Source of the DNA: a virus
Strand: one strand, 5' to 3'
Virus record (IMG/VR): IMGVR_UViG_3300038417_000475
Span: 21,152 to 85,151 of that record
Length of the DNA stretch: 64,000 nt
Below, piece after piece: positions 34,266 through 54,944 of the stretch. A program made the position numbers and the translations under genes. Below the pieces are notes generated by a model. The model made no database searches, was not told the DNA's origin, and saw only the letters and a program-made list of their open reading frames with translations. Numbering within the stretch: position 1 is the first letter of the stretch; the number at the start of each line of letters is the position of its first letter.

Positions 34266-35207
34266 CTACTCTATGACGCTCTGCGCTACGGAGCCCGTAA
34301 TGAATTTATGGTCGATCTCCGGGCAGGCCATCAGGTCACTCGGGAAATCATTGCCTTCCAGGTAGGGCAGGAACGGCTCTGCCAGCCTGTGGAATACAGC
34401 TTCGATCGCCGACTTCTTAAAATCCTCAGGGTGGACCTGGATATCGACATACATGGCCTCTCCCATCCAGTTGCAGACCTCCTGGATGGTGGGAGGCTTG
34501 GGGTTTGTCAGCCAGTATTTGCCGGCGAGCTGCTGTTTGACGATGTAATCCGCCACCGCGTCGACAGGGACCAGGTTGATATGCCCGTCCGGATTGCCTT
34601 TGACCCTGAACTGCGGTGTCAGAACAGGCAAACGCAACGTACCTTCGATGGCCCGCCTCACAATCTCAGCCCTTTCATGGACTGCGCAGATTCCCCGGGC
34701 AAACTGGTAGAGGGCGCCCATCGAAGGCTTGATGATATTCATGCAGGGGATGATCACCCCCGGCTTGAAGACAGCCTTGAAGAGCCAGGTCTGGGCATCG
34801 ACCGCCTTCTCCGCCGCTTTCTTGGAGATCTCGTAGGAATTGCGCCCTATGGTGTACGCCGTCCCAACGTAGAAAAGTTGCGATACGTTATAGCGTTTGC
34901 AGAAGTCGATTACATGAATAGTGCCATCGTAATTCGTCTTCCAGACCCGGTCTTCGTGCTTCGTTCCCAGGTTGATATCCGCCGCCAGGTGGTAAAGAGC
35001 GTCAAATCTGCGGACGTTAGCCTCGTCCTCTCTGACTCCCAGCAGATTCTCCACAATATCGCCATGGATGATATCCATATCCGGAAAGAGCTTCTTCGTT
35101 TTATCCACGTCGCGGGCTATGAGAGTCACGAGATCACCGCGCTCGATGAGTCGCGGTACCACTTCCTGCCCGAGCTGCCCCGATGCGCCTGTCACCAGAA
35201 TCTTCAT
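34266..35207 (-). CDS. Extended-SDR NAD(P)-dependent reductase/epimerase
   Basis: Rossmann motif TGASGQLGQEV (G-x-x-G-x-x-G, residues about 6-16), HLAAD with the extended-SDR NAG-like position, and the catalytic Y-x-x-x-K in NSYEISKKAAEK. About 313 residues; an ATG at 35210 is the alternative start, RBS GGAGG. Substrate cannot be told. Within this cluster a reduction or epimerisation of a lipid headgroup, sugar or polyketide product is plausible. Confidence 0.85.
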   Translation of the reverse strand: MKILVTGASGQLGQEVVPRLIERGDLVTLIARDVDKTKKLFPDMDIIHGDIVENLLGVREDEANVRRFDALYHLAADINLGTKHEDRVWKTNYDGTIHVIDFCKRYNVSQLFYVGTAYTIGRNSYEISKKAAEKAVDAQTWLFKAVFKPGVIIPCMNIIKPSMGALYQFARGICAVHERAEIVRRAIEGTLRLPVLTPQFRVKGNPDGHINLVPVDAVADYIVKQQLAGKYWLTNPKPPTIQEVCNWMGEAMYVDIQVHPEDFKKSAIEAVFHRLAEPFLPYLEGNDFPSDLMACPEIDHKFITGSVAQSVIE

Positions 35208-35228
35208 CATTACCTCCACAGTTCCTTA

Positions 35229-35670
35229 TTAAACCGCCAAGGCAAATTGCCGCCGTTGCTTTTGGCAGGCACGGCAAAATCTATAACCATGCCAGGCATA
35301 CGTATTTTCTTCATCAAAAGGATGCCCATGCTTACAAGCTGTTTTCTTGGCATTCAAGGCAGTCGGGCTAAGACCACGAAGAAGATTTATCTTAAGCGGA
35401 ACAGGCTCCAAATGCCCTGGATTCACGCATAAGGTATTTATGCAGCCTCTAGCCTTCACATGATCTAGCGTATAACTTTCAGGTATGGGCCCCACCATGA
35501 GTTCATAGGAAAAACGGTGTGCCAACACATGCTTGCCATTAACTTTAAACATCCCATACCTAAGCCCACCCCTACCACTACTAGTACCTGCCTGCCAGAG
35601 CCAGCAGGCATCAGGATCAGTATGAGGCCCGACTTTCTCCCAAAACCGCTCTTCAACTGTTTTTTTTCAT
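35229..35670 (-). pseudogene. HNH homing endonuclease split by a one-base insertion
   Basis: Starts ATG 35670 overlapping the previous stop, but an 8-A run (35660-35667) throws it out of frame after three codons. With seven A it would read MKKTVEERFWEKV and join the downstream frame, which is an HNH nuclease closely similar to the intact protein at 44630 (shared LAHRFSYEL, VGPIPE, LDHVKARGC and NPGHLEPV). Either a pseudogene, a phase-variable gene, or a sequence error. Confidence 0.8.
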
Positions 35671-35933
35671 CGTCGGTTATCACAGCCCTTATGGCTATAG
35701 TGGGCATCCTTCCCCTTTTTGCCCACCCTCATCAGTGTGCCACCTCCTCGCCCACAGTGCACGCAGACAATCGGCCCTCCGGGAGCTGGAGGCGGTAAGC
35801 CCGGGACAGCATCCAGGATAGGGATGTCCGAGACCAACTTCCCGGGCACCTTTGGGTATTGATCCATCAATTCCCGCAAGTGAACCAGAGACTGGGTGGC
35901 ACTCCCCACCAGCACAACTCGTTTCTCGTCCAT
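35667..35933 (-). CDS. Zinc-ribbon protein, 88 aa
   Basis: ATG 35933 lies two bases after the polyketide-synthase stop. C-terminal CVHCGRG...HKGC suggests a zinc-binding tail; the N-terminus is a short Rossmann-like strand and helix (EKRVVLVGSATQSLVHLREL). No family recognised. Confidence 0.55.
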   Translation of the reverse strand: MDEKRVVLVGSATQSLVHLRELMDQYPKVPGKLVSDIPILDAVPGLPPPAPGGPIVCVHCGRGGGTLMRVGKKGKDAHYSHKGCDNRR

Positions 35934-35934
35934 A

Positions 35935-37083
35935 TCAAGCCCAGTAGAGCAAAATTCCATACGTTTTGAAGCCGGCGCCCATTGTGAGCACCAGGCCCCA
36001 GTCGCCCGGCTGGGCCTGCTCTTTCGCCAGGCGCCCGATTGAAGCAATGGTAGCAGAACTCTGGTTACCCTGCTGCCTCAGGATTTGCCTCGAGTAAGCC
36101 AGCTTCTCCTCCGGGATCTTCAGGCGATCGCGGATATTGTCCAGGACTTTGACCCCGCCCGGGTGAATAATAAGGTGTTTGATGTCGCGCAGCGTCATCC
36201 CCGGGACCTGTTCCAGGATTCTGTTTACCACCCTCTCGACCAGCACAGGTGCCACCTTCGGCACATCCTTGTCCAGCTTCACCTTCAGCCGGCCGTCCAC
36301 CCAGTCAAAGCCAAGATAGTCAATATAGCGGCGGTCGAACTCTTCGGCAAAAGCCCAGATCCAGGGGTGCTTCGGGTTGTCATCCTGCCCGATCAAACAG
36401 GCACAGGCCCCGTCGCTGAAAATGGCATTGGCCACCGTATTCTCCAGGTCTTTCTCCGGAGCCGGGTAGAACGTGGCGGTGCAGATCTCCGCCGTTATTA
36501 CCAGCGCGGGGTAGCCCGTCTGCATGAAATGGTCATGGGCCCTGCGGATAGCCGGAGCTCCGCCAACGCACCCGCCTCCGATCATATCGGTATGCTCAAT
36601 ATCAGAGGGCAGCTTCAGCAGCATCGAATAAAAGTAACTCAGAGAGGGGCAGAGCAGCCGGGGTTGCGTTGTGGTAGCAAAGGTGATTGAGCCGATGTCC
36701 TTACGGATCTCTAAACCTTCGATGCACTGTAAGGCGGCTTCCAGCCCCAGGTTTACAGCACCCGCCTCATATTCCTGGCACATCTGCTCAAAGGTCATAT
36801 TACGCAGCTTGCTGGGATGAATCCAGCACGGCCGCCGGTCGATCCCGGAATTCTTGAAGATATTCCAGACCCGTTGAGACGTGTAGCCCAGGGCATCATA
36901 TGCTTCCTTCTGGGTCACAAATGTCTTGGGGACTGCGGTACCCAGTGAGATGATCTTGGCCCTCTTCGGCTTCCGATAATAGGCCGCCGAGCGTTGGGGG
37001 GCTGCCTCTTCCTGCCGTTTAATAGTTTCAGGAGTCCGGGTATCCGGAAAGCCGTTCAGGTCTGGTCTGGTTGCAATCATCAT
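35935..37083 (-). CDS. Type III polyketide synthase (chalcone-synthase-like)
   Basis: 382 residues, the usual size of a thiolase-fold type III PKS or related KAS III. Catalytic triad visible: Cys172 in GGGCVGG, His307 in IIHPGG, Asn340 in GNQSS; the C-terminal G-A-G-F loop follows. His-Pro-Gly-Gly is the chalcone-synthase form. Such enzymes condense an acyl-CoA with malonyl-CoA to give alkyl pyrones, resorcinols or similar. The 42-residue N-terminal extension is basic and probably disordered. Surrounded by prenyl-lipid genes. Confidence 0.9.
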   Translation of the reverse strand: MMIATRPDLNGFPDTRTPETIKRQEEAAPQRSAAYYRKPKRAKIISLGTAVPKTFVTQKEAYDALGYTSQRVWNIFKNSGIDRRPCWIHPSKLRNMTFEQMCQEYEAGAVNLGLEAALQCIEGLEIRKDIGSITFATTTQPRLLCPSLSYFYSMLLKLPSDIEHTDMIGGGCVGGAPAIRRAHDHFMQTGYPALVITAEICTATFYPAPEKDLENTVANAIFSDGACACLIGQDDNPKHPWIWAFAEEFDRRYIDYLGFDWVDGRLKVKLDKDVPKVAPVLVERVVNRILEQVPGMTLRDIKHLIIHPGGVKVLDNIRDRLKIPEEKLAYSRQILRQQGNQSSATIASIGRLAKEQAQPGDWGLVLTMGAGFKTYGILLYWA

Positions 37084-37298
37084 ACCCCCGGAGCTTTCGG
37101 CATCGGCTGGTCAAATGCGTGGGCATAATCTTCCAAAGCCACATAGTAATCCACTACACCCTTCCTGAATTCTGGGGTTTCTATAAGAAGCTCCATCAGT
37201 TTTCTGAAACCATCACGGCCTAATCCCCTGATTTCTTCCGGGCTCAGTATATAATCTGGATCCTTCTGGTACTTTTCAAAAATCTCTTCCGGCTTCAT
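37080..37298 (-). CDS. Hypothetical protein, 72 aa
   Basis: Helical, acidic (PEEIFEKYQKDPDYILSPEE), with an aromatic C-terminus. Its stop overlaps the PKS start (ATGA), so it is co-translated with the PKS. Possible carrier-like or regulatory partner, but it lacks the phosphopantetheine Ser motif of an ACP. Confidence 0.55.
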   Translation of the reverse strand: MKPEEIFEKYQKDPDYILSPEEIRGLGRDGFRKLMELLIETPEFRKGVVDYYVALEDYAHAFDQPMPKAPGV

Positions 37299-37309
37299 TT
37301 AGGCCTCCT

Positions 37310-38272
37310 TCATTTCGCCACCGCCTGGCTGATGACCAGTGCCAGCATCCACAGGAACATCACCCCCATTGCCGCCATAATCGCCTTGTTGTTGAATTTC
37401 AGCTCAGCCTGCTTGACGTCCGGCTTTGTTTCGCAGACCGCCAGGATGCAGTAGATAAACGGCGGCATGAGGGCCAGAGTAGAGAGCGTCAGCGGCGCTA
37501 GGTACCCGCCGATGACAAGGGCTATCTGGATGATGTACGCAAAGCCCAGCAGTGTACACGTAAAGAGCACCGGGTTGACTCCCGTCTTCCAGGCCAGGGC
37601 GCCCATGTTGCGGAGTCCGGAACTCCAGTTGACATCCGCATCGAACGCCTGGTCGATGAATTCCGCGCCAAACCCAAACGTCCAACCGAAAACTAGCCCT
37701 GCCATAAAAGCCGGGCCGAAATTGTGGAACACAAATGTGCTGGAGGCCGCAGCTCCAAGACAACATGCCAATGGCCCAAAGCCCAAACCCAACACAGTCT
37801 CGCAGGCATAATGTAATTTACCGAGGGAATAAAACGGAGAACAGAGAGCTGATAGCCCCCATGGCAGCCAAATCCAAGCTGAGGCATAGTGAGCAATGAT
37901 CGCAGCCACTACCGCAGACGCAGCCAACCAGCAGAGGGCATTGACAAGAACTTCAGTTGGCTTCATCAAGCCAGTCACAATGACCTGGTTGCCGCTGGTG
38001 TAGGACTTCGGCTTCGAGGTATCATCGCCGATATGGTCAATCCCTGTAGTATAGTCAAAGAATGTATTGAGTGAGTGTTCCCCAGCCATCAATAGACCAG
38101 AGCAGACGATTGCTAACGCAATCAGCCAGCCCGCAGCGCCGGTGAGAATGCAACCGAGGGCCACGGCACATCCGGCTGCTGGCAATGCAAAGGGTCTACT
38201 TAATATGACTATGTGGATTCTTGCTCTTTGTAGTAACGAAAGTCCTGATTTTGGCAGTAACTTTTGGCTCAT
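37310..38272 (-). CDS. UbiA-family prenyltransferase
   Basis: 320 residues, about eight to nine TM helices. First Asp motif NTFFDYTTGID (N-x-x-x-D-x-x-x-x-D, residues about 68-78) and second motif near residue 205 (EFIDQAFDADVNWSS). UbiA enzymes transfer prenyl chains to aromatic or other acceptors in the membrane. ATG 38272 gives the usual ILSRPFALP entry, though the first 26 residues overlap the Vsr-like gene by 77 bp. With the type III PKS it suggests prenylation of a polyketide-derived ring. Confidence 0.88.
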   Translation of the reverse strand: MSQKLLPKSGLSLLQRARIHIVILSRPFALPAAGCAVALGCILTGAAGWLIALAIVCSGLLMAGEHSLNTFFDYTTGIDHIGDDTSKPKSYTSGNQVIVTGLMKPTEVLVNALCWLAASAVVAAIIAHYASAWIWLPWGLSALCSPFYSLGKLHYACETVLGLGFGPLACCLGAAASSTFVFHNFGPAFMAGLVFGWTFGFGAEFIDQAFDADVNWSSGLRNMGALAWKTGVNPVLFTCTLLGFAYIIQIALVIGGYLAPLTLSTLALMPPFIYCILAVCETKPDVKQAELKFNNKAIMAAMGVMFLWMLALVISQAVAK

Positions 38273-38993
38273 CCTTCAGTTCCTCCTCCCAAATAACGAG
38301 GCATTTGATTCCAAGAGCATTATAAGCCATGATTCTACCGAGCTCTGTTCGTCTCCACTTTGGATTGTTCCCTTCGTGCCAATAGCGTCCGAAGGCTTCA
38401 ATCACCATTTTGCGGCCATTTTTATTGAAGAAATCAGGGATCATCCCATCAATAATAACCTTGCCATCACCAGTGTATTCCCATTCGCCTGGATAGTCCC
38501 TCTCCAGCAGTACCTCCAGGTTCTTCTCCAGCTTCGTTGGCTTAATCAATGCCCTATTTGATTCAGCCCTTAATTGTCGATATGCCCTAGAACTTGTCCA
38601 GCACTTCGAGGAACAATATTCACCTGTCCCCTTAGTAGTCATAGCTGACCTTGGAACTCTGAAATCCCTCCCACAATTCAGGCAAATGCGGGCTACCCTC
38701 CTATTTCTATGATCTGAGCATTTCCGGGAGCAGAATTTCCGGGTACGCCGCAACCCCGGTTCCTTCACTGGGAGGGTTTTGCCACATTTAGCACAAGAGA
38801 TGATTCTGGGTTCTTTCTTAACCCAATTCTTGCTGAAATTCTTCACAATGGTCTGATAATCTTGAGGAAGAGAGCCAAACCAAACTAGGCGGCAGGGATT
38901 CGAACAAAAGTTGTGCTCACGTACTAGCCAGGAAGCTTTCTGAAATTGCTTGCCACACGTAGTGCAGGTTACCTCACGCATTACAGTTGTCAT
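38196..38993 (-). CDS. Zinc-ribbon Vsr/EDxHD-like homing nuclease
   Basis: 265 residues. Three Cys-x-x-Cys/Cys modules in tandem (CTTC...FCSNPC, CAKC...FCSRKC, CLNC...YCSSKC) followed by a Vsr-like PD-(D/E)xK-type nuclease domain (PDFFNKNGRKMVIEAFGRYW then H, about 205-245). Zinc fingers would bind DNA, the nuclease cut it; such free-standing enzymes home into phage genes. It lies within the lipid gene set and its C-terminus overlaps the UbiA start, which suggests insertion at that spot. Confidence 0.75.
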   Translation of the reverse strand: MTTVMREVTCTTCGKQFQKASWLVREHNFCSNPCRLVWFGSLPQDYQTIVKNFSKNWVKKEPRIISCAKCGKTLPVKEPGLRRTRKFCSRKCSDHRNRRVARICLNCGRDFRVPRSAMTTKGTGEYCSSKCWTSSRAYRQLRAESNRALIKPTKLEKNLEVLLERDYPGEWEYTGDGKVIIDGMIPDFFNKNGRKMVIEAFGRYWHEGNNPKWRRTELGRIMAYNALGIKCLVIWEEELKDEPKVTAKIRTFVTTKSKNPHSHIK

Positions 38994-39640
38994 ATTAGCT
39001 TACATAGTGCCATTACCAAAGCACTCGCAAGGGGTATGGAGAAATTATCATCGATATATCTTGTAGTTTTCGTGAATCTTTCTGCAAGCACAGCAGTAAT
39101 GGCCCCGACAGCGCCAATCCAGTAGGGTTGGATGAAGTATGCGAGCAAGAGACAGGTTACCACCATACCCACGCTGCCCCACAATCCTTTGACTTCTCTC
39201 CCATAGACACGGCTACGGATGAGCCCCGTTATCGCATCCCCTCCCCCCATGAACGTCAGAGGAACTATTGCCAACCAGGGTTCGTGGTATATCCCCCAGA
39301 GAACGCCGATGAGAACAGCTCCGGTGGCTGGGAAATGTATTTCGGCTAGAGCATCTAATCTCCCGGAGCCACCCACACCACGGAAAAGACCAGGGCGGAA
39401 AACCCTGGCATAAAGTAACAGGATTGTGAATCCGGCTGTCAGAATAAATGGCCACCAGAAATTATGGAACAGGAAAGGCATCAGAAGAAATCCAAGACAA
39501 CCCCCCAGGTGACCTATTTTCCTGCTGATATACTGCGGCACTTTATAGTCATAGAAGAGATTGGCCAGATACAAGGACGTGAGAACTCCGAGGAGTATCA
39601 GGGCAACGTATGGCAATTCGTGTACGTAGCTCATTCTCAT
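38990..39640 (-). CDS. Phytol/dolichol kinase-like CDP-transferase-fold protein
   Basis: 216 residues, about seven TM helices, of the CTP-dependent polyprenol kinase group (VTE5/SEC59/phytol kinase). Features are RKIGHLGG near residue 40 and MGGGDAITGLIRSRVYGR then KGLWGSVGM (about 130-160), matching the family G-D-A-x-A/T..K..E/W-G-S. It would phosphorylate a prenol for activation. ATG 39640 overlaps the previous stop (ATGA). Downstream of the SCP2-like gene and upstream of UbiA. Confidence 0.75.
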   Translation of the reverse strand: MRMSYVHELPYVALILLGVLTSLYLANLFYDYKVPQYISRKIGHLGGCLGFLLMPFLFHNFWWPFILTAGFTILLLYARVFRPGLFRGVGGSGRLDALAEIHFPATGAVLIGVLWGIYHEPWLAIVPLTFMGGGDAITGLIRSRVYGREVKGLWGSVGMVVTCLLLAYFIQPYWIGAVGAITAVLAERFTKTTRYIDDNFSIPLASALVMALCKLI

Positions 39641-40045: not shown

Positions 40046-41041
40046 TTAAGTGAGTTTGGCTATAACTCTCCCGCCCATTTTAGTTATTCCCCTCTTGACC
40101 CTCTGCCCCCTTGATTCTCTCCGGAGTGTAACCGGCTTGGCTGTCAAAATATCCTGCGCCAGTTTTGTAAAATACGGTTTCAATGCGTTCATGTCCGGGG
40201 TCTGGGGAATGGACATCAGAAACGGGATCCCGCAATCCCTGGCCTCTTTTCCCATAGCTAGCTTGGGGGAAAGCAGCTGGTGGCTCACCCTCCCGCAGCT
40301 CGGGCACAAATAGCCGTCCATCATCGAGAGAAGACCGATTATGGGCACTTCCTCGAGCCTCAAAAAGTCGACGGTTCTCCTCATGCCGAGTGCCGAGATT
40401 TCTGACGGTTGGGAGACTATAATCACACCTAGCAGTCCACTTAGGTGCTCAAAAAACGAGAAAACTTCGGATGCAGTTGATGGCGGCATATCCGCCAGAA
40501 GAATCTCCGTGTCATCGGGCCACTGCACCTGTTCCGATAAGAGTTGACGGATGATTGAAGCCCTGTTGGAAACATACGTTTGTTTCAGGTACCAGGCCTG
40601 ATGGTTATACACATCGGCTTCCTGAACGATCTCGAAGGAAGAATGTACGTCGGGATTCTTCTCGAGAAACTCTTTGCATTTCTGTACGATGTCCTGATTG
40701 GCCTTCAGCCAGTTCTGCACCTTCTCCATCACTTCATCGGGGATCTCAACGGTGCCCGTCTCACCCTTCCACATGACGGAATTAGCTTCGCCAAAATGAG
40801 CACAAATCGAGAACAGATAATATCCGTTGATTTCCGGAGGAATGAGCTTGCGTTGTTCCGTTGATGTTTTGATGCGTGGGGGTTCCGAGAGCCCCAACGC
40901 CTTGTGAAGTGTACTGCCGCTCAGGTCGATATCCAGAAATCCGACCCTGTGCCCCATATCGCGTAATGCCAGCCCCAGAAGTGCCGTAACGGTGCTTTTC
41001 CCGACCCCGCCCTTCTGGCTCCAGACCGCGATTTTTTTCAC
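40046..41041 (-). CDS. Mrp/ParA-type P-loop ATPase
   Basis: About 331 residues from GTG 41041. Deviant Walker A KGGVGKST (residues about 11-18), Walker B ILLADMPP and a C-terminal CPSC pair (CPSCGRVSHQLL) as in Mrp/NBP35-type Fe-S or regulatory ATPases. An insertion of about 90 helical residues follows the first domain. The promoter at 41049-41078 predicts transcription to begin at the GTG, so the mRNA would be leaderless. It may partition DNA, carry Fe-S, or switch on the lipid operon. Confidence 0.8.
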   Translation of the reverse strand: MKKIAVWSQKGGVGKSTVTALLGLALRDMGHRVGFLDIDLSGSTLHKALGLSEPPRIKTSTEQRKLIPPEINGYYLFSICAHFGEANSVMWKGETGTVEIPDEVMEKVQNWLKANQDIVQKCKEFLEKNPDVHSSFEIVQEADVYNHQAWYLKQTYVSNRASIIRQLLSEQVQWPDDTEILLADMPPSTASEVFSFFEHLSGLLGVIIVSQPSEISALGMRRTVDFLRLEEVPIIGLLSMMDGYLCPSCGRVSHQLLSPKLAMGKEARDCGIPFLMSIPQTPDMNALKPYFTKLAQDILTAKPVTLRRESRGQRVKRGITKMGGRVIAKLT

Positions 41042-41048
41042 GTTCTTG

Positions 41049-41078
41049 ATTATATGCGCACGTTTCTTACGTTGTAAA
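41049..41078 (-). promoter_or_regulatory. Promoter of the Mrp/lipid operon, leaderless
   Basis: TTTACA (41073-41078), 18-bp spacer starting ACG, TATAAT (41049-41054). Transcription would start at or one base before the GTG of the ATPase (41041). Confidence 0.75.
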
Positions 41079-41108
41079 TGCCCCAAACGCGCACTGCCTC
41101 GCGCTCTA

Positions 41109-41137
41109 TTTACAACGCAATGCGCACGTTTTATAAT
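41109..41137 (+). promoter_or_regulatory. Divergent plus-strand promoter, leaderless
   Basis: TTTACA (41109-41114), 17-bp spacer, TATAAT (41132-41137). The start would be 41144-41145, directly at the ATG of the next gene. The ACGTGCGCA/TGCGCACGT core is shared in mirror image with the opposite promoter. Confidence 0.75.
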
Positions 41138-41144
41138 CCGATTT

Positions 41145-41390
41145 ATGACAATAGAAAACACTACTGAAACCCAGCCTGAAACCCCGGCAGCAGATGTCCC
41201 ATCGGAAGTCTATCGTTTGACTGTGGAAATGCCCGAAAAGTACCGTAAAATTCTGAAGACTGCGGCGCAGCAGGCATTTCTCCTGAAGAAGATAGATGAG
41301 CCCTCGGTACACAACGTAATGAACCTCTTCATTAACCTGGGGCTTCAGTATCTGGTGGACGAAGGCCGCAGAGCACAAGGCTACAGATGA
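41145..41390 (+). CDS. 81-aa helical protein, leaderless
   Basis: From ATG 41145. A disordered acidic N-terminus (TETQPETPAADVPSEVY) and two helices (KYRKILKTAAQQAFLLKK; HNVMNLFINLGLQYLVDEG). The second half resembles a ribbon-helix-helix- or accessory-type DNA-binding fold but is not decisive. Coupled by ATGA to a winged-helix gene. Confidence 0.6.
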   Translation: MTIENTTETQPETPAADVPSEVYRLTVEMPEKYRKILKTAAQQAFLLKKIDEPSVHNVMNLFINLGLQYLVDEGRRAQGYR

Positions 41391-46359: not shown

Positions 46360-46803
46360 CTAAAACAACTCCTTCTGTACTACCTGTTCTTGCCACCAGT
46401 TGTAGAAATCCAAAGGGTCGTTATGAAACCGGCGCCGCATCTCATTGATATAGGCCACCCGTCTCTCGGGTGAAAAACTGGCAGCCTTATGCAACACCTC
46501 GCTGCTGATTATCCTCAATCCCTCCCGGTACAGTATCGGCCAGCCGGTGTTATCGTGCAGAATCCTGTCACGGTAGCAAGCCAGGCAAACGCCCCCCTTC
46601 GCCGCTTTATCACAGGAAGAGTAAAGCTCCAGGACACATGCTCGAGGATTAGCCAGCAGTATTTCACCCTCTGCCTGGCCCAGCTCTGCCCAGAGCTTCG
46701 CATCTTTCGCCAGCAACTTCTCCCGGAGATCTCCCGCCATCGGCTTGGAAAGGAGTTCAGCGGCCTTGAAAATCTTCTGGTGCAGCTCTATTACTTTGCT
46801 CAA
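46360..46803 (-). CDS. Helical protein with a C-x(n)-CLAC cluster, 147 aa
   Basis: Long helical N-terminus (LSKPMAGDLREKLLAKDAKL), SCDKAAKGGVCLAC cluster near residues 63-76 (possible zinc or Fe-S ligands), then basic C-terminus. Overlaps the helicase gene by 4 bp (ATGA-type). No family recognised. Confidence 0.6.
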   Translation of the reverse strand: MSKVIELHQKIFKAAELLSKPMAGDLREKLLAKDAKLWAELGQAEGEILLANPRACVLELYSSCDKAAKGGVCLACYRDRILHDNTGWPILYREGLRIISSEVLHKAASFSPERRVAYINEMRRRFHNDPLDFYNWWQEQVVQKELF

Positions 46804-48380
46804 TTATTCCTCCCGTTGGTCTTGGGAAACGGATAGAACTTCAGGTCCATCGGGGAGCAGATGTGCAGCACACTCCTGGCCCTGCTTGCTTCCACATAGG
46901 CCAGGAGGTGTTCCGGCTCCGGGTTATGGCCGAAGCCCGCCCACACCCTGATGGTCATGTCGGGCACAACAAACACCACTTCTTTCTCTCTGCCCTTGGA
47001 TCCATGGCCGGTAGTAACAATAACCTTCGGGCCCTGCTCGAAAGGCTCGGCGCCATAGTTCTTATAGACCTTGGCCAGATAGTTGATCTCACCGGGCTCA
47101 ATCTCCATCTTCAATACGTCATAGGGTTCAGCTCTGAATATATCCGGGTGGAAGCCCATCTCCATCATGGGAGCCTGCCCCCATTCGCCTTCCACGAGCT
47201 TGTTTACATGAGTCTTGGTTCCCCGCCTGATAAAGGGGTTTTTGGAGACCTTCATGAACTGAACTATGTGGCGCAACTCCGAGGTCGATACCTTTTCGCC
47301 TGCCCTCACCTTCAGCATGGCATAGTAGGCGCTGGCCTTGTTGGTACCCAGGGGGCCTCTCTCTCCTCTTTCTGCTGTGAAGGGTATCCCCCGCGTAAAC
47401 AGACTTAGGCCGATCTCCTTACAGAGATACCGGGTCCGGGCCAGGATAAAGGTCTCCTGCCGCCCGTCTACCCGGGCAAAAGAATCACTGCCCACTATCC
47501 CATCGGAATCAACCGCCTGCAGGAAGTCGGGTACCTGGAGATGGGCACGGCGCAGGATCTCAAGGGTATAGTCCTTTATCCGGAGCCCATGCCGATGGGT
47601 CAGCTTGAGATTTACCTGCTCGTCTGCCGGGAAATCATTGAAGAGCTCTGGCCGGCAGCCAGCAAAACTGTAGATTGCCTGGTTGGGGTCTCCCGCCACA
47701 TAGACCTGTTGTGCTCCTGACATCCAGAGTTTAGCCACCTCCCAGAGGAGCGGGCTACAGTCCTGTGCCTCGTCCAGGACCATAACCTTGATCGGCGGGA
47801 TAAGGTGCTTCTCCAGCACACCATACAAGAAATCGTCGAAGTCCCACAGGTGGTTCTCTGCTTTGTACCTGCTCCTTCGATCGATATAGGTCTCCAGTCC
47901 GCGCCTGGACCAGTCCGCCGGCAGCCCCTCAACATTGGTCTCCAGGAAATGATTATAAGCATCAGGGAAGGGCTGCATTGTGCTCTGCATGTAGCCGACG
48001 AAGAATTCATAGTACTCCGCCAGCGTCTTCAACATCTGTTCGTGATACCGGGACTCCATGGACTCCCGCGTATCCACGGAGAATTTGTAGCCATAAGGCT
48101 TCCCGAACTCCTGTAGCTTCCTGTCGGTGAAAACCTGGTTTCGATGAAGCCCCAGGAGACGAAAGGCTATCGAGTGCTCCGTGGAGAAGTAGGTGAAAGG
48201 CCCGGATATCTCCAGCTTCCCCCGGATCCTGCCGGCAGCTTCTCCCGCGGCCGCCTTAGTGAAAGTGGTAAACATAACGGCTTCCGGAGCCACCCCCTGA
48301 GCCACATGGTCTGCCACCCAGTTGATCAGCTGGGTCGTCTTGCCGGTACCCGGTGGGCCCCAAACCTTGATCTTTGCCAT
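46800..48380 (-). CDS. UvrD/Rep-like superfamily-1 DNA helicase
   Basis: 526 residues from ATG 48380 behind AGGGGGCGGG. Motif I GPPGTGKTT, Ia FTTFTKAAA, motif II VLDEAQDC, motif III GDPNQAIYSF, motif IV-like region, motif V TGHGSKGREKEVVF and a C-terminal motif VI (VEASRARS). All SF1A UvrD-like. Smaller than UvrD (about 700) because insertions 1B and 2B are reduced. Likely works in repair or replication with the clamp and ligase. Iterons lie directly upstream. Confidence 0.9.
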   Translation of the reverse strand: MAKIKVWGPPGTGKTTQLINWVADHVAQGVAPEAVMFTTFTKAAAGEAAGRIRGKLEISGPFTYFSTEHSIAFRLLGLHRNQVFTDRKLQEFGKPYGYKFSVDTRESMESRYHEQMLKTLAEYYEFFVGYMQSTMQPFPDAYNHFLETNVEGLPADWSRRGLETYIDRRSRYKAENHLWDFDDFLYGVLEKHLIPPIKVMVLDEAQDCSPLLWEVAKLWMSGAQQVYVAGDPNQAIYSFAGCRPELFNDFPADEQVNLKLTHRHGLRIKDYTLEILRRAHLQVPDFLQAVDSDGIVGSDSFARVDGRQETFILARTRYLCKEIGLSLFTRGIPFTAERGERGPLGTNKASAYYAMLKVRAGEKVSTSELRHIVQFMKVSKNPFIRRGTKTHVNKLVEGEWGQAPMMEMGFHPDIFRAEPYDVLKMEIEPGEINYLAKVYKNYGAEPFEQGPKVIVTTGHGSKGREKEVVFVVPDMTIRVWAGFGHNPEPEHLLAYVEASRARSVLHICSPMDLKFYPFPKTNGRNN

Positions 48381-48460
48381 CCCGCCCCCTTTTTTAAGTT
48401 GTGGCAATTTTACTATATACGCGCGAGAATATTTTTCGGTACAATATCCAAAATCTGGCG

Positions 48461-48680
48461 TACCACATTTACCACACCTGTGTTTGTTTACGCATGGTAG
48501 GTGCGAAAATATCTACCACACTTTGAGCGTGGATTTGTGGTAGCATGTGGTAGTGTGGTTGCTTACCTTTACACAAAGTACCACAGTTACTCATTGCATT
48601 TTTGGGCTGTGGTAAATGTGGTAGCAAAAATCCGCCTACGCGTATATAGGGAATTTTGGTGGATTGTGGTAGATGTGGTA
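48461..48680. repeat. TGTGGTA iteron cluster (candidate origin or operator)
   Basis: Nine perfect copies of the heptamer TGTGGTA, in both orientations, plus one variant. Tandem pairs with 9-bp period are at 48461/48470 (reverse), 48608/48617 and 48665/48674; others are at 48514 (reverse), 48536, 48546 and 48579 (reverse), with TGTGGTT at 48554. Flanking CGCGTATATAG motifs appear in opposite orientation (48412 and 48640). Located between a DnaB-N protein and a helicase gene. Confidence 0.7.
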
Positions 48681-48701
48681 AGAAATTTCCAGTCTGGTAC
48701 A

Positions 48702-49727
48702 TCAGTCCTCCAGCCATGAAATATCTTCATCTGTGGAGAATAGTGGGATTGGCAACCCCCACAACCTGAATGATTCCGTGCCTACCCTTATCGACTCGCT
48801 CCTCTCAGCCCCATGCTTCTTGAGCCCTTCCCAGAGCTCTCCCCTGGTCATAATCATCTTGTACTGGTCTGTGAGGTAGCGGTGGAGCTTGCTGGACTGG
48901 AACCAGCGATATCCCCGCTTTTCCACATAGCCCCGGACCAGGTCATCCGGAGACTCTGCCTCCTTAGCTGCGGCAAACCACTCCTTCACAGCAGTGAGTA
49001 TCTGATCTTCCTTCTTCGTATCGGGAGGTGTAGCGGTCTGCTTTGCATTTGCTATCAGGTTAGAGATGAAGAGGTCGAATCCTGGGGGCAGGTCCGGGAC
49101 AAAATGTAGGGACTCTCGTATCCTTCTCTTGAACTCCCTTTTGTTGTCCAGATGCTCGGTTTTGAATTGAATATCTGCCTCCCTCCCCATGCCGGACGCA
49201 TGGATAGTGTAGAGGGGTGGCTCGGTGAGACTGATGATAGGATTAGTGAAGGTCACCACCCGGGACGGGATCTCATGGCGGGCTTGGACACTGGAGACAA
49301 GCAGGCTGATCCTATCGAGCAGGGGAGCCAAGGTAGAGCCAGGGTCATAGATTTTGGGGAAGATGTCCGTCAGGGCGCTGATTACCTGCCGGCGCAGCGA
49401 GAGGTCAAGGATTGTCTCGGCATGTGTCCTGGCATGGACAGAACTCAAGGTATTGGCCATAATGTGGGAAAGGTAAGAGATCTGCACCCCGTCCGATACC
49501 TCTTTGGCCAGGGTGATCTGAGTTATCTCCTCTCCCCTGTACCTCAAGCGTAAACTCGCTTCGAAGAGTGAGCGGCACCTATCATCATGGAAGTCCTCCA
49601 TGCGAAGGATTTTGGAGACCTCATCAACGGTGTCAGGATCCATCATGAAAGCCCCGATGACCGACATCTCAGCCAGCTCGTCGTAGGGAACAGGATGGGG
49701 CCCGCTGCCATTGGACTTCCGAGCCAT
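48702..49727 (-). CDS. DnaB-N-terminal-like replication protein, no ATPase
   Basis: 341 residues. The N-terminal about 120 residues are DnaB-N-like (AEMSVIGAFMMDPDTVDEV then FHDDRCRSLFEASLRL and a TLAKEVSD-type helix), the helicase region that binds primase. No Walker A or RecA-like domain follows; instead there is a different C-terminal domain (WFQSSKLHRYLTDQYKMIM, WH-like). It resembles accessory/loader or primase-binding proteins and could recognise the iterons just downstream of it. Confidence 0.7.
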   Translation of the reverse strand: MARKSNGSGPHPVPYDELAEMSVIGAFMMDPDTVDEVSKILRMEDFHDDRCRSLFEASLRLRYRGEEITQITLAKEVSDGVQISYLSHIMANTLSSVHARTHAETILDLSLRRQVISALTDIFPKIYDPGSTLAPLLDRISLLVSSVQARHEIPSRVVTFTNPIISLTEPPLYTIHASGMGREADIQFKTEHLDNKREFKRRIRESLHFVPDLPPGFDLFISNLIANAKQTATPPDTKKEDQILTAVKEWFAAAKEAESPDDLVRGYVEKRGYRWFQSSKLHRYLTDQYKMIMTRGELWEGLKKHGAERSESIRVGTESFRLWGLPIPLFSTDEDISWLED

Positions 49728-49731
49728 TACA

Positions 49732-51225
49732 TTACTCTTCTAGGAATTTCAACGCCTCGGCCTCAACCGAGCTTTTGGCAATGTGGTCTCGCATTTTGGC
49801 GATATCGCCCTTGTTCCATTGACCTGCCTTGCCGGTTACCTCCTGGAAGAGTTTCTTGATATCTGAGTCGTTTTTACCTATATTTCGCAACGCTACCACA
49901 ATCTCTCGCTTTTCCTCAGGACTAGCTGGGGTGGTGTTTATCTGGCCAGCAGTGCCGGGTTGAAGCGCCCCATCTACCTGGGACGCCGGCGCAGTCTCTG
50001 GGGGCTTCTTCTTTTCCTCAGCCCGCCTCTTCCCCTCATCTTCAATGGCATGCTTGAGGAGTATGGTCTGGGAGAGGTCCATCTGTTTGTAGTCAGTGTG
50101 ACCGAAGAGCTGCATCATCTTGGGGAGAACGAAGGCCTCCCAACTCCCCTCGCCGAGCAGATCCTTGGCCAGCATAAAGAGGTCGATCTCCTTCAGGGGT
50201 TCACCTACTGCCCCAGCCTGTTGCCTCTTGGCAGCCTCCTCGAGTGCTGTGGCAGCCGGCCCAGGGGGATGTTGGTCTGTCGACGCAGCTCCGCCCGGTA
50301 GCCGTTTCTTCTCATCCCTTCTTGTCCTCTTGGGAGCGGTTGTTGGTGTTTTCTTCCCTTCGCTGCTTGTTGCCCCTGTTTTCGTATCCTGGAACTCTTC
50401 AACAGGCGGCTCGTCTTCATCACCGAAGCTGCCCCGAAGATCGCCGGGTACCTCTTCCTTAACAGCTTCTTCCGCTGTCTGAGCTACAGGTTGCTCAAGC
50501 AGGAATTGCCTGCTGGGGTTAGCGATTATGCGCAGCAAATCACCCAGCTTGAGTTCATTCTTCAGATGCATGATCCAGACGGTCTTTCTCTTCTGCCCGG
50601 GCGGGTTCACTTCCTGGGGCCCTATTGCTAATGTAAAAGGAATCATGGCGATCTGGCGAACGCCGGTTACCCGCTCGGCCATAATCCTCACCATAGCGAT
50701 TTGAGACTGGATGTTTATGCGTGAATGGTAGGATGTCGTCGCGACTTCATAAACGCCCAGGCCGGGCACCTCGGGCAGCATAAATTGGAGCCGCATGATA
50801 GGCCGGCACCTCTTTTTCAAGAACTGTTCGCATCTCTCCGGATTGCAGGTAAGCCCGTCTTTCCATACCCAATGGCCTTCAACGGTATTCCGGTCTGCCA
50901 TAGCGCCTGTGTCCACATCTACCTTCTGCTTGGCAATTATCCCGTCTCCGAAGCAGGTCAGCCCATAGGTCAGCCCGTAGCACCTGTAATACTGGCTCAG
51001 CCACTCAAGATCATTGTTGCTGGGGAACATAATGGGGTAGATCGCGGTGGGCTTTTCCCCATAGACCTTCCGGACTGCTTCTGGGCAGACGAGGTAATCG
51101 ACGGCTTTGGGAATGGTCGCGGTGGGATCATCTGGGAGACGGGGATTCTGGACTCTGATACCGAGGCGGATTCTATCGATGCGCTCAAGACGGACAAGGT
51201 TAGAGAAACCATCAATAGGTGACAT
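49732..51225 (-). CDS. RDF-like / phage hydrolase-metal-binding family protein
   Basis: 497 residues. The N-terminal 250 residues follow a conserved phage pattern: a DGFSNLVRLERIDRIRLGI start, PKAVDYLVCPE, WLSQYYRCYGL, then a Cys-rich segment (CNPERCEQFLKKRC) and LPGLGVYEV...INIQSQI. Members are annotated as recombination directionality factor-like. A long disordered Pro/Glu/Gln-rich linker and a C-terminal domain follow. An integrase is encoded in the window, so an RDF role is plausible; a DNA-annealing role is an alternative. Confidence 0.5.
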   Translation of the reverse strand: MSPIDGFSNLVRLERIDRIRLGIRVQNPRLPDDPTATIPKAVDYLVCPEAVRKVYGEKPTAIYPIMFPSNNDLEWLSQYYRCYGLTYGLTCFGDGIIAKQKVDVDTGAMADRNTVEGHWVWKDGLTCNPERCEQFLKKRCRPIMRLQFMLPEVPGLGVYEVATTSYHSRINIQSQIAMVRIMAERVTGVRQIAMIPFTLAIGPQEVNPPGQKRKTVWIMHLKNELKLGDLLRIIANPSRQFLLEQPVAQTAEEAVKEEVPGDLRGSFGDEDEPPVEEFQDTKTGATSSEGKKTPTTAPKRTRRDEKKRLPGGAASTDQHPPGPAATALEEAAKRQQAGAVGEPLKEIDLFMLAKDLLGEGSWEAFVLPKMMQLFGHTDYKQMDLSQTILLKHAIEDEGKRRAEEKKKPPETAPASQVDGALQPGTAGQINTTPASPEEKREIVVALRNIGKNDSDIKKLFQEVTGKAGQWNKGDIAKMRDHIAKSSVEAEALKFLEE

Positions 51226-51595: not shown

Positions 51596-51605
51596 AGCAA
51601 AGTTT

Positions 51606-51690
51606 TGGGTCGGGTGGGGTATGGCTAGGTGCGGTGTGGGCGGCTGGGCATGGTTTGGTTTGGCATGGTGAGGTAAGGTAAGGAATTTCA
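51606..51690 (+). repeat. Pentamer block in a 5' leader
   Basis: About fifteen consecutive degenerate pentamers of the form NGGYN, ending AGGTAAGGTAAGGAATTTC, in the leader of the gene at 51710. The 5-nt phase holds with two slips. Same design as the array at 52291-52870. Confidence 0.8.
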
Positions 51691-51709: not shown

Positions 51710-52285
51710 ATGGAATTGAAGTTGACACTCAAGGGTCTGGCGCCGGGGCTTTTAATGAATAGTCCAACGGCAATGGTTCCGACGCCCACTTCTGCAAAAG
51801 GGAAACCCAAGCTGTCAGGTCCGGAGGATCAAGCTAAGGAAAGACTGTACATCATGCCTGACAAAAAAACGCTCTATGTTCCTGCAGCGGCGGTCAGGGC
51901 AAGTATTCTGGCAGCGGGCAGGGGCTATACTGTGAAGGGGCCGTCAGGCCGGCGCGGATCTGCGGGGGTTACACTGGCCGCCTCGATTCTCCTTGGAGAG
52001 CCGAATTTCCCTCTCCTGAACGAGAAAGGCAAGCCTCTGACGATAAAGGATTACACGGTGGATGCCCGAAGAGTGGTGGTTCAACGGTCCGGAATTATTA
52101 GAGGAAGGCCGTTGATATTTCCCTGGATGCTAGAGTGCGTGTTTCCTTATTTCGCCAATCTTGAGCAGGAGACCATAGAGGCTATGGTCAAGGATGCTGG
52201 CTCTATCGCCGGGCTTTTGGATTTCCGCCCGCAAAAATCCGGTTGGTTCGGACGTTTTGAACTTGTCGAGATGAAGATTGAATGA
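51710..52285 (+). CDS. Conserved hypothetical protein, 191 aa
   Basis: A beta-rich protein (LKLTLKGLAPGLLMNSPTAM, ERLYIMPDKKTLYVPAAAVR, RRVVVQRSGIIRGRPLIF) of a type seen in other phage- and plasmid-like elements; the run of Y-V-P-A-x-A-x-R-x-S and R-R-V-V-V-Q is characteristic. Weak resemblance to RAMP-type RNA-binding folds. Flanked on both sides by the NGGYN pentamer repeats, so it could bind them. Confidence 0.6.
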   Translation: MELKLTLKGLAPGLLMNSPTAMVPTPTSAKGKPKLSGPEDQAKERLYIMPDKKTLYVPAAAVRASILAAGRGYTVKGPSGRRGSAGVTLAASILLGEPNFPLLNEKGKPLTIKDYTVDARRVVVQRSGIIRGRPLIFPWMLECVFPYFANLEQETIEAMVKDAGSIAGLLDFRPQKSGWFGRFELVEMKIE

Positions 52286-52290
52286 TATCC

Positions 52291-52870
52291 AGGCGAGGTT
52301 GGGTGCGGTAAGGTGAGGCGCGGTAAGGCAAGGTGAGGATTTCATTGATCTTCGGTGGGGTGAGGTCTGGTGAGGCTAGGTTAGGTGCGGCGAGCTGTGG
52401 CGTGGTAAGGTTTGGTGAGGAATTTCATTGACCCAGAGTTGCGGTGAGGCCTGGTAGGGTGTGGCCCGGTAGAGCTCGGTACGGTGTGGTGGGGTAAGGT
52501 GAGGAATTCATTCTGGTATAGGTGAAGGCTAGGTACGGTCGCGTTGGGTGTGGGGTTAGGTAAGGAATCTTGAGACTTCGGTGTGGTTCGGTGAGGCCAG
52601 GCATGGCGAAGTTTGGTTGGGTCAGGTAAGGTGAGGATTTCATTGACCTGTGGTCGGGTCTGGCCTGGTCAGGTGATGTCGGGCCTGGTGGGGTCAGGCA
52701 AGGTCTGGTGAGGATTTGCTGAATGATAGGCTCGGTCGGGTTTGGCAGGGCTAGATGAGGTGAGGTCGGGTCAGGTCCGGTACGGTGAGGTTTGGTAAGG
52801 GATTTCATCATGATTTCATTCTGGTGGCACGGTGGGGCCGGGCGAGGTTGGGTGCGGTAAGGTAAGGTCT
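52291..52870 (+). repeat. Array of NGGYN pentamers in about eight blocks
   Basis: A 580-bp noncoding array between the 51710 and 52888 genes. Degenerate pentamers with GG in fixed phase run for 8-14 units, then a linker of the type AGGAATTTCATTGA. Linkers begin at about 52336, 52418, 52502, 52563, 52634, 52711 and 52798, giving spacings of 61-87 bp. The first and last block share a 23-bp direct repeat (52292-52314 and 52841-52863). The + strand is strongly G-rich and T-rich. Confidence 0.85.
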
Positions 52871-52887
52871 AATTTAAGGGGGTGTTT

Positions 52888-53577
52888 ATGCAGCAGATGG
52901 TATCGGTGGCCAGGCTAGTCGAAGATTTCGACATTTATCCGCGAACGCAGGTCGATGATTACAATGTGGCTGCCATCGCGGAGGCGCTCAGGGCGGGGAA
53001 CCAGGTGCCCCCTCTGAAAGTCGGGCAGGTCGCCGGGCACAAGACAAGAACGTTTCTCATTGTGGATGGTGTCCACCGGAGCCGGGCATACCGCAGAGTT
53101 TTCGGAGATAATGTCAAGGTTCCAGTGGTCACCCAGGTCTATAAGGACAAGAATCAGATGATACTCGAAGCGGCTGAGGCCAACTCTCACCATGGCAGGA
53201 TCCTCACCATGCAGGACAAGACCAAGTGTGTCATCATGCTGGAGAAAGCCAAATACCCGATCGCCCAGATTTCGAAGGCCCTGGGCTTAACGGCAGAGAA
53301 AATCGCTTTATTAAAGGCGGAGAGAACAGCCACCCGGGGCGGGCAATCCGTGGCGTTGAAACTGTCCACAAGCCACTTGGCCGGCATGGACCTGACGAAG
53401 GAACAGATGAGATATCAGGAGGCAGCCGGAGGCCTCCACCAGAGCTTCTATGTCAACCAGGTCATTTCAATGTTGGAGGCGGATGCGGTCGATTGGGATA
53501 ATGAAAAGCTGGTGGCTCTTCTGGGCAAGCTCGCACAGCTGCTCAGCGAGAAAGAGAAGCTGTTATCACCAGCATGA
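52888..53577 (+). CDS. ParB-like nuclease-domain protein
   Basis: 229 residues from ATG 52888 (RBS AAGGGGG). ParB-N pattern: VEDFDIYPRTQVDDYNVAAI, then VDGVHRSRAYR (G-x-H-R motif) and a helix-turn-helix near residues 120-145 (QISKALGLTAEKIALLKAE). Could bind a centromere-like array or regulate; the pentamer array lies immediately upstream. No ParA next to it; the Mrp-like ATPase at 40-41 kb is the nearest candidate. Confidence 0.75.
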   Translation: MQQMVSVARLVEDFDIYPRTQVDDYNVAAIAEALRAGNQVPPLKVGQVAGHKTRTFLIVDGVHRSRAYRRVFGDNVKVPVVTQVYKDKNQMILEAAEANSHHGRILTMQDKTKCVIMLEKAKYPIAQISKALGLTAEKIALLKAERTATRGGQSVALKLSTSHLAGMDLTKEQMRYQEAAGGLHQSFYVNQVISMLEADAVDWDNEKLVALLGKLAQLLSEKEKLLSPA

Positions 53578-54050: not shown

Positions 54051-54944
54051 ATGAATGACTATCTCCAGAAGCTCTACGACCACTATGAGAGCCGGCTGGC
54101 CTCCAAGGGCTACAATCGAACCCAATACCTGAAATGGGTGCAAGCCTTCCTGGAGTACTGCGAGGGCAGTGACTTCAAAACCGAAGCTAATTTCCAGGAT
54201 GAGGATGCGGTCCGCGCGAAGATTCAGGCCTATTTCATCAAGCTCAAGAGGGGCTACGGTGATGGCTCCCTGGGAACGATCTGGTCCATCCTGCGGGCCT
54301 TCTTCAACCGCAATCACCTCGAATGGCCTTTCGGCAAAGGGGAAGCCCCCTCACAGGCTGAAGACAAGAAACAGCACCCTGCCCTCGACCCTGGCCTGGT
54401 GAATGAGATCATCCTGGCAGTCAGACAAAAGGGCAGCCCGGAAGAGCAGGCTTTTCTGGCCTTGAGCTCTACCTATGGACTCCGCCGCGGAGAGCTTCTG
54501 GCCCTCACTCCTGAGGAATTCAAAATCAAGGACCGTACTATATATGTAGCGACCCTGAAACATGGGCGCGCCCGCAGCCATCTCATTCCTGAAGAGATAG
54601 TGCCCTATCTGGAGGGATATGACTTCAGCCGGAAGATCTCCCGGAGCAGCCTGGCTATCCTGTGGTACAAGATCGAAGACAAGGCGGGGCTGGTCCATTA
54701 TCCGAGGGTGGGCTTCCACAGCATCCGGCGCACGCTGAATACTTGTCTGGAGCAGCATTTCGGTGAGGTTCAAATAAAGACCTTCCTGCGGCATAAGGGC
54801 GGCAGTGACATGACCATGGCGTACACAGCCACCAAGTTCATTACCCGGGAAGGCTCTACCAACAAGCTGGCTGCCGTCTTGAGCGACCTGGACAAGCGGG
54901 TATTTGAAGTCCATCCGTTCCTGCCGGCATGGAGGGAGACATGA
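54051..54944 (+). CDS. int: Tyrosine recombinase (integrase)
   Basis: 297 residues. Core-binding N-terminal helical domain (about 1-95), catalytic domain with Arg in STYGLRRGEL, Lys in LKHGRAR, H-x-x-R in FHSIRRTL, His in FLRHKGG and Tyr in MAYTATKF. It would catalyse site-specific integration or resolution of circular DNA. No attachment site could be identified. Confidence 0.9.
   Translation: MNDYLQKLYDHYESRLASKGYNRTQYLKWVQAFLEYCEGSDFKTEANFQDEDAVRAKIQAYFIKLKRGYGDGSLGTIWSILRAFFNRNHLEWPFGKGEAPSQAEDKKQHPALDPGLVNEIILAVRQKGSPEEQAFLALSSTYGLRRGELLALTPEEFKIKDRTIYVATLKHGRARSHLIPEEIVPYLEGYDFSRKISRSSLAILWYKIEDKAGLVHYPRVGFHSIRRTLNTCLEQHFGEVQIKTFLRHKGGSDMTMAYTATKFITREGSTNKLAAVLSDLDKRVFEVHPFLPAWRET

Follow-up and report, generated by a model that had tools for sequence, protein, structure and literature searches.

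Results

Gene context of the TGTGGTA array

The window analysed here, a single stretch of 64,000 nucleotides, corresponds to positions 21152-85151 of an 85,151-bp IMG/VR virus record, which is linear and may be a fragment. Within it, a non-coding gap separates two genes on the minus strand and holds an array of the heptamer TGTGGTA. The features of this locus, by window position, are as follows.

46800-48407, minus strand: SF1 (UvrD-like) DNA helicase (PF00580 at 1.6e-25; PHROG 1967)
48408-48701, no strand: non-coding gap of 294 bp between the DnaB_N gene and the SF1 helicase gene, proposed origin
48413-48423, minus strand: second CGCGTATATAG copy, inverted, located immediately upstream of the helicase gene
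48461-48680, both strands in the order ---++-++++: iteron array, ten perfect TGTGGTA sites in 220 bp
48461 (-), 48470 (-), 48514 (-), 48536 (+), 48546 (+), 48579 (-), 48608 (+), 48617 (+), 48665 (+), 48674 (+): the perfect TGTGGTA sites
48461-48476, minus strand: left iteron pair TGTGGTAAATGTGGTA, 16 bp, a perfect (100%) inverted copy of 48608-48623
48608-48623, plus strand: right iteron pair TGTGGTAAATGTGGTA, partner of the inverted repeat at 48461-48476
48635-48653, plus strand: companion element CCTACGCGTATATAGGGAA, of the form CCTACGCGTA-N3..5-TATAGGGAA
48665-48680, plus strand: outer iteron pair TGTGGTAGATGTGGTA, separated by 22 bp from the DnaB_N stop codon
48702-49727, minus strand: proposed initiator of 341 aa, with DnaB_N at residues 14-107, an AEP-primase-like C-terminal region and a predicted winged helix at its end
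49732-51225, minus strand: Gp3-like (recombination directionality factor-like) protein (PF18897, 1.2e-34), encoded on the strand of the initiator gene and upstream of it

The helicase gene probably starts at an ATG at 48380. The first-pass annotation of this DNA had placed the repeats between DnaB-N and helicase genes, and the profile matches bear this out (PF00772 at 2.8e-18 and PF00580 at 1.6e-25). No hallmark structural genes were recognised in the scanned parts of the record, and no annotated phage sharing the gap DNA was found. Searches of IMG/VR for relatives using the DnaB_N or the helicase protein alone also found none.

Several other features of the window deserve mention. A Ku gene (PF02735) followed by one for an ATP-dependent DNA ligase (216-2423) constitutes a non-homologous end-joining pair in a virus-like element. 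The cluster at 34266-39640, which is unusual phage cargo, combines a polyketide-synthase/KAS III-like enzyme with UbiA-like membrane, epimerase-like and kinase/cytidylyltransferase-like proteins, the last three recognised by eye. Also by eye, a subtilisin-like protease (29070-31388) is apparently split by an intein; L004:9764-11245 encodes another intein-like protein, which matches LAGLIDADG weakly.

The array and the DNA of the gap

The array begins 22 bp past the stop codon of gene 48702-49727, directly downstream of it, and we infer that this gene encodes the initiator of an origin borne by the array. The array had previously been described as nine perfect heptamers and one variant; the count is in fact ten perfect sites, with three one-mismatch sites at 48400, 48554 and 48693. 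The description of heptamers in both orientations was correct, as was that of 9-bp pairs, the start spacings being 9, 9 and 9, plus one of 10.

TGTGGTA occurs 19 times in the whole window against 4.1 expected, a count reached in 0 of 100 shuffles. Equal frequency of the word elsewhere had been named as evidence against an origin; the rest of the 85,151-bp record holds only twelve copies, all single and scattered. The array is the densest 7-mer cluster of the record. When the 294-bp gap was simulated 3000 times with a first-order model, TGTGGTA reached at most 3 copies and any 7-mer at most 4.

The gap is also distinct in its physical properties. Its GC content is 41%, compared with 54% for the record, and a duplex stability below that of the gap is found in only 0.3-1.1% of the record, depending on window size. 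As single-stranded DNA the gap folds into a far more structured form than its shuffles (z -5.4) because of its nested inverted repeats, and a strong single-strand fold is present in other TGTGGTA arrays as well. A structured RNA was considered and rejected, since no Rfam match was obtained across 46-54 kb and the inverted repeats explain the fold. No promoter was found in the gap by a search that covered the sigma-70 type.

A DnaA-dependent oriC was likewise rejected. DnaA boxes (TTWTNCACA) occur 4 times in the 64 kb, which is the chance expectation, and 0 times in the gap; DnaA domain IV (PF08299) had no match in G000, and across 22 array-bearing records it gave a single weak match that fell below the family cut-off. 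The sequence TACCACA is similar to part of the Thermotoga DnaA box, but a convincing DnaA domain IV was absent from the array-bearing records. The cumulative GC-skew minimum lies at 51,005, 2.3 kb from the array and at the same place as a change in gene direction; GC skew was dropped as proof of an origin because it is confounded by gene direction.

In the same region, degenerate pentamer arrays (GGTNN/GGYNN, with GG every 5 bp) lie on the plus strand at 51600-51690, 52285-52505 and 52580-52875, and are unique in the 85-kb record. Several of these blocks end in GGTGAGGA(A)TTTCATT, and they are located upstream of a 191-aa gene (51710) and a ParB-like gene (52882). They are candidates for a centromere, a second origin element or a 5-nt-spaced RNA target of a ring protein, and probably also cause a local GC-skew peak.

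The companion element

Motifs had been noted at both ends of the array. This was partly right: two copies of CGCGTATATAG exist as an inverted pair, at 48413-48423 (-) and 48639-48649 (+), but the right-hand copy lies inside the array. The pair flanks the 16-bp inverted repeat formed by 48461-48476 and 48608-48623. With up to 1 mismatch allowed, the window contains no copies beyond this pair, against 0.22 expected. A chance motif was therefore rejected, on the basis of this count and of the recurrence of the motif in gaps behind VapE genes, described below.

The right-hand copy is part of the companion element, and a near-copy of the window's CCTACGCGTATATAGGGAA, with the form CCTACGCGTA-ATA-TATAGGGAA, is carried by the VapE locus L239. 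All of IMG/VR was scanned with the pattern CCTACGCGTAN(0-5)TATAGGGAA, which returned two other contigs, L257 (the contig of L239) and L258 (a new, high-GC phage); as about two matches are roughly expected by chance, this count is uninformative and is not proof by itself. Weight lies instead in both matches falling in gaps that follow a VapE gene (PF05272, E about 1e-80) and have TGTTACA sites nearby, although L257 supplied the pattern and L258 is thus the sole independent match. The companion may be an unwinding element, or it may be part of a promoter, given that in both L257 and L258 the next gene (a VRR-NUC gene in L257) follows just downstream of it. It was absent from 398 scanned genomes of the phylum of the Ruminococcus host.

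The proposed initiator protein

DnaB_N is the sole domain matched in the 341-aa protein, which lacks an AAA+ or SF3 helicase domain and contains no P-loop. Identification as a replicative DnaB helicase was rejected, as only the N-terminal domain of DnaB is present, with neither a RecA-type ATPase domain nor a P-loop. The region from residue ~165 to the end aligns with the C-terminal region of AEP primases from L107, ct3Et533 (L157), DSL-LC04 (L158) and L235-L237, and less well with that of Pan1 (L159). The protein is not itself an AEP (TOTE-type) phage primase, because the AEP catalytic domain is missing and the C-terminal region alone is held in common. By alignment, then, it is a chimera of DnaB_N and an AEP primase C-terminal region.

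In these phages the AEP primase gene is followed by a gene for a helicase of the window's kind (PHROG_1967); the window record itself showed no AEP primase. The presence of an AEP primase with the same helicase in these phages suggests that the same module occurs here, with DnaB_N replacing the AEP domain. In L157-L159 and L235-L237, primase, shared C-terminal region and adjacent helicase occur with no TGTGGTA array alongside; the array is thus not a fixed partner of the C-terminal domain.

The C-terminal part of the 341-aa protein was modelled as helix-strand-helix-helix-strand-strand, with a pLDDT of about 70-79 in this part and 63 for the model, and is predicted to be a winged helix. Structural matches, which fell among those of other winged helices, included the pCW3 relaxosome accessory protein in complex with oriT DNA (Z 8.0), residues 439-556 of SCCmec Cch (Z 7.4, the third best), residues 451-563 of SaPIbov1 Rep (Z 6.8) and residues 618-718 of NrS-1 polymerase (Z 5.6). 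A Z score under 8 may arise from a commonly shared arrangement, and confidence in the models is low to medium. As the scores are middling and winged helices are common, these matches are support, not proof.

TGTGGTA arrays in other elements

Two DNA-pattern scans of IMG/VR turned up intergenic arrays with 5-12 TGTGGTA copies in mixed orientation in a diverse range of unrelated phages. The reversed word, scanned against IMG/VR as a control, gave mostly bare three-site matches, many of them in coding sequence. Scanning the 84,980 species genomes of GTDB yielded more arrays, mostly in Bacteroidota and also in Ruminococcus, Selenomonadales, Nostocales and other bins. Arrays from the first scan with regular 9- or 12-bp same-strand spacing were set aside as probable coding repeats. 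One Bacteroidetes MAG (JABDDT) has small clusters of palindromic type that seem to be a separate repeat of chromosomal origin. The three-site pattern was found at one or two places each in seven host genomes (2-9 Mb; backward control, 0), and among 395 Bacteroidota genomes it was present in 3, of which 2 were already known carriers. This rarity within genomes suggests that the arrays belong to particular elements and not to chromosomes at large. A search of a limited literature collection found neither the TGTGGTA class as a motif nor this initiator described.

The survey comprised 68 arrays in 34 DNA-independent groups, and an array was scored as adjacent if it lay within 450 bp of a gene 3' end. 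Arrays adjoin the 3' end of a replication primase/helicase gene in 12 of the 34 groups, compared with 5 of 142 other gaps at the same loci; the query set includes proteins first noticed beside arrays, and the families were assigned independently by Pfam and NCBIfam. The adjoining genes encode VapE (L034, L126, L134, L170 and L213), BT4734/PriCT_2 (the L226 group), D5/DUF5906 proteins of P4 type (L122 and L181, the latter with an NrS-1 HBD domain), Prim-Pol (L187, in which the array begins 8 bp past the primase stop codon) and a DUF927 protein with a Cch HTH domain (L202). No replication gene was recognised adjoining the array in the other 22 of 34 groups, and some arrays adjoin a terminase small subunit gene (the L123 group and L095) or an integrase gene (the L045 group). 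The word may not always have the same meaning across elements.

Three sets of loci illustrate this variety. In one Nostocales MAG, two near-identical ends of a 155-aa gene (L186:5483-5702 and L232:859-1108) are each followed, 15 bp downstream, by an 11-13-copy TGTGGTA array. Arrays at L123:2243-2327, L127 and L095:1757-1973 are positioned directly upstream of terminase small-subunit genes, and TGTGGTA may also mark packaging or early/late control regions. The 374-aa tyrosine integrase loci (L045, L162, L163, L167, L168, L169, L179, L184, L189, L199, L203, L204, L207, L223 and L231) are mostly from Bacteroidales; the word context in the L045 array is TGTGGTACA, and the arrays of this group are possibly integrase arm-type sites or an end-located origin.

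VapE genes were also sampled without regard to TGTGGTA, using the Pfam model alone in 118 Bacteroidota genomes, to which a protein scan of IMG/VR added L238 and L239; profile scans for VapE in IMG/VR returned little. Behind the VapE gene were seven TGTTACA/TGTAACA sites in L239, eight GTGATAG/CTATCAC sites in L242 and seven TGTGGTA sites in L238, each without equal in 500 simulations. L240 has a borderline array, and L241, L243, L245 and L253 have no clear array behind the VapE gene; L244 (= L213) and L238 (on the contig of L134) are not independent of the loci above. The arrays in L239, L242 and L238 suggest that a heptamer array 3' of the gene is recurrent in the VapE class, and that the word varies, TGTGGTA being one among several.

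Discussion

A probable iteron-type origin behind its proposed initiator gene

The data presented here suggest that the segment is probably an iteron-type replication origin, located directly 3' of its own initiator gene and bound by the 341-aa protein. The first-pass annotation had proposed an iteron origin or a strong operator; because the same word stands behind unrelated replication genes in many mobile elements, the array is most likely a replication start. The arrays of other heptamers behind VapE genes, the recurrence of the companion element in two VapE gaps and the low duplex stability of the gap also favour an origin.

Origins of comparable layout are known. According to Ubeda et al. 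(2007), as cited in PMC7581432, SaPI Rep binds iterons just downstream of its own gene by means of its C-terminal domain. The window is alike in having short iterons directly downstream of a proposed initiator gene, whose predicted C-terminal winged helix aligns with part of SaPIbov1 Rep and would bind them; it differs in iteron sequence and copy number, and SaPI Rep is an AAA+ helicase whereas the window has a DnaB_N protein with no P-loop and a separate SF1 helicase. In SCCmec, Cch2 uses its C-terminal domain to bind iterons that follow the helicase gene, and a primase acts at the same site (PMC7581432). The Cch/Cch2 system with CCPol-MP thus shares with the window iterons behind the gene, and the Cch C-terminus is a middling structural match to the predicted winged helix, but SCCmec has three AAGTG iterons, a hexameric helicase and an AEP-like or PolA-like primase partner, in place of ten TGTGGTA sites, DnaB_N and an SF1 helicase. 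The origin of pRN1 is directly 3' of orf904 and includes a large inverted-repeat stem-loop (PMC4234260). It resembles the window in this position and in the inverted repeat, and differs in that its stem-loop is without a recognised iteron array and its replication protein is a PrimPol-helicase. The modules of Pan1, DSL-LC04 and ct3Et533 are similar in helicase family and in the C-terminal region of the neighbouring protein, and differ in having an AEP domain instead of DnaB_N and no TGTGGTA array. By analogy, the window origin would work like those of SaPI and SCC elements; it is not filed as a member of the SaPI/Cch family because its initiator lacks their helicase domain.

A mechanism can be proposed on this basis, since SaPI and SCCmec initiators bind iterons downstream of their own genes and the pRN1 origin is likewise 3'. 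Copies of the 341-aa protein would bind the TGTGGTA sites, which are set out roughly as two inverted half-arrays, through the C-terminal winged helix. The nucleoprotein complex so assembled would open the low-stability DNA of the gap, and the SF1 helicase, encoded on the other side of the gap, would be loaded onto the opened DNA. Priming would follow helicase entry. In the least certain step, DnaB_N, standing in place of the AEP primase domain of the relatives, would recruit the host replication machinery (DnaG/DnaB). DnaB_N is the part of DnaB that contacts the DnaG primase, so its simplest role would be to recruit the host primase.

In those elements that have an AEP primase, the arrays might also act as priming sites. 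TGTGGTA is a possible priming site because GTGG, within it, is one of the most efficient primase start motifs of NrS-1 PrimPol (PMC8718748). GTGG is common to both systems, but the window has an array while NrS-1 has only two copies of an 8-nt site (PMC7102993). Elements with a Toprim-type primase (L213 and L170) carry TGTGGTA too, which argues against a priming site as the general meaning of the word. A broader proposal is more speculative, and we consider it doubtful at present: that TGTGGTA is an origin word shared by VapE, P4/D5, PrimPol, Cch-like and DnaB_N-chimera proteins, whose catalytic domains are non-homologous, and that the window protein is primase-less, with DnaB_N replacing AEP and borrowing host DnaG for the SF1 helicase.

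Other functions of the array

It is unlikely, though the most credible of the other functions weighed here, that the array is an operator at which a phage repressor or activator controls the helicase operon through its promoter, with transcription running leftwards out of the gap. The array is upstream of the helicase gene on the same strand, with a CGCGTATATAG copy just upstream of the helicase start, and ribbon-helix-helix (RHH) regulators bind heptad arrays, the heptads of the omega repressor (WATCACW) being one base from TGTGGTA. On the other hand, the sigma-70-type search found no promoter in the gap, and what stays constant beside the arrays of different elements is a replication gene's 3' end, as in L187 with its 8-bp separation, whereas the downstream gene varies. 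The chances appear slim that the array serves in partition, as a centromere recognised by a protein of ParB or RHH type belonging to the ParA system of the element. Centromeres can be short-repeat arrays in both orientations, and the record encodes both ParA (40046-41161) and a ParB-like protein (52882-53577); however, these par genes are 4-7 kb off, the GGTNN repeats at 52.28-52.88 kb are directly before the ParB-like gene, and array-bearing relatives were recognised via replication genes and not par genes. Indeed, the pentamers at 51.60-51.69 and 52.28-52.88 kb could themselves compete for the role of origin or centromere.

Arrays directly upstream of terminase small-subunit genes (PF03592, PF20901) in L123/L124/L127 and L095 raise the idea of a pac site, bound by the small terminase subunit for packaging. 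For the window this is slightly less probable again, as no terminase was recognised in the scanned part of the record or next to the array, and the integrated elements L213 and L226 have intact arrays between replication genes. The intact and internal position of these same two arrays, which are not split between element ends, speaks also against an attP with arm-type sites for a tyrosine integrase. In fifteen loci of Bacteroidales type (the L045 group) the array does adjoin the 374-aa tyrosine integrase gene, and that of L179 lies between a tyrosine integrase and a host-like gene, but the window's own integrase (54051-54944) is 5.4 kb off, has 297 aa and begins at the core-binding domain, with no arm-binding domain. 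An attP is accordingly the least probable function of all.

Implications of a probable iteron origin

Few origins are known for phages and integrative elements, since protein annotation does not reveal them. A simple sequence rule, an array of one heptamer 3' of a replication gene, recurs in phages and integrated elements alike and ties an uncultivated element to testable biochemistry. The chimera of DnaB_N with a primase C-terminus suggests a route by which a module could lose its own primase and use that of the host. If TGTGGTA is truly a shared origin word, elements of different families could compete for or share origins; and should a single heptamer serve replication proteins that are not related, one could predict incompatibility and origin piracy from sequence.
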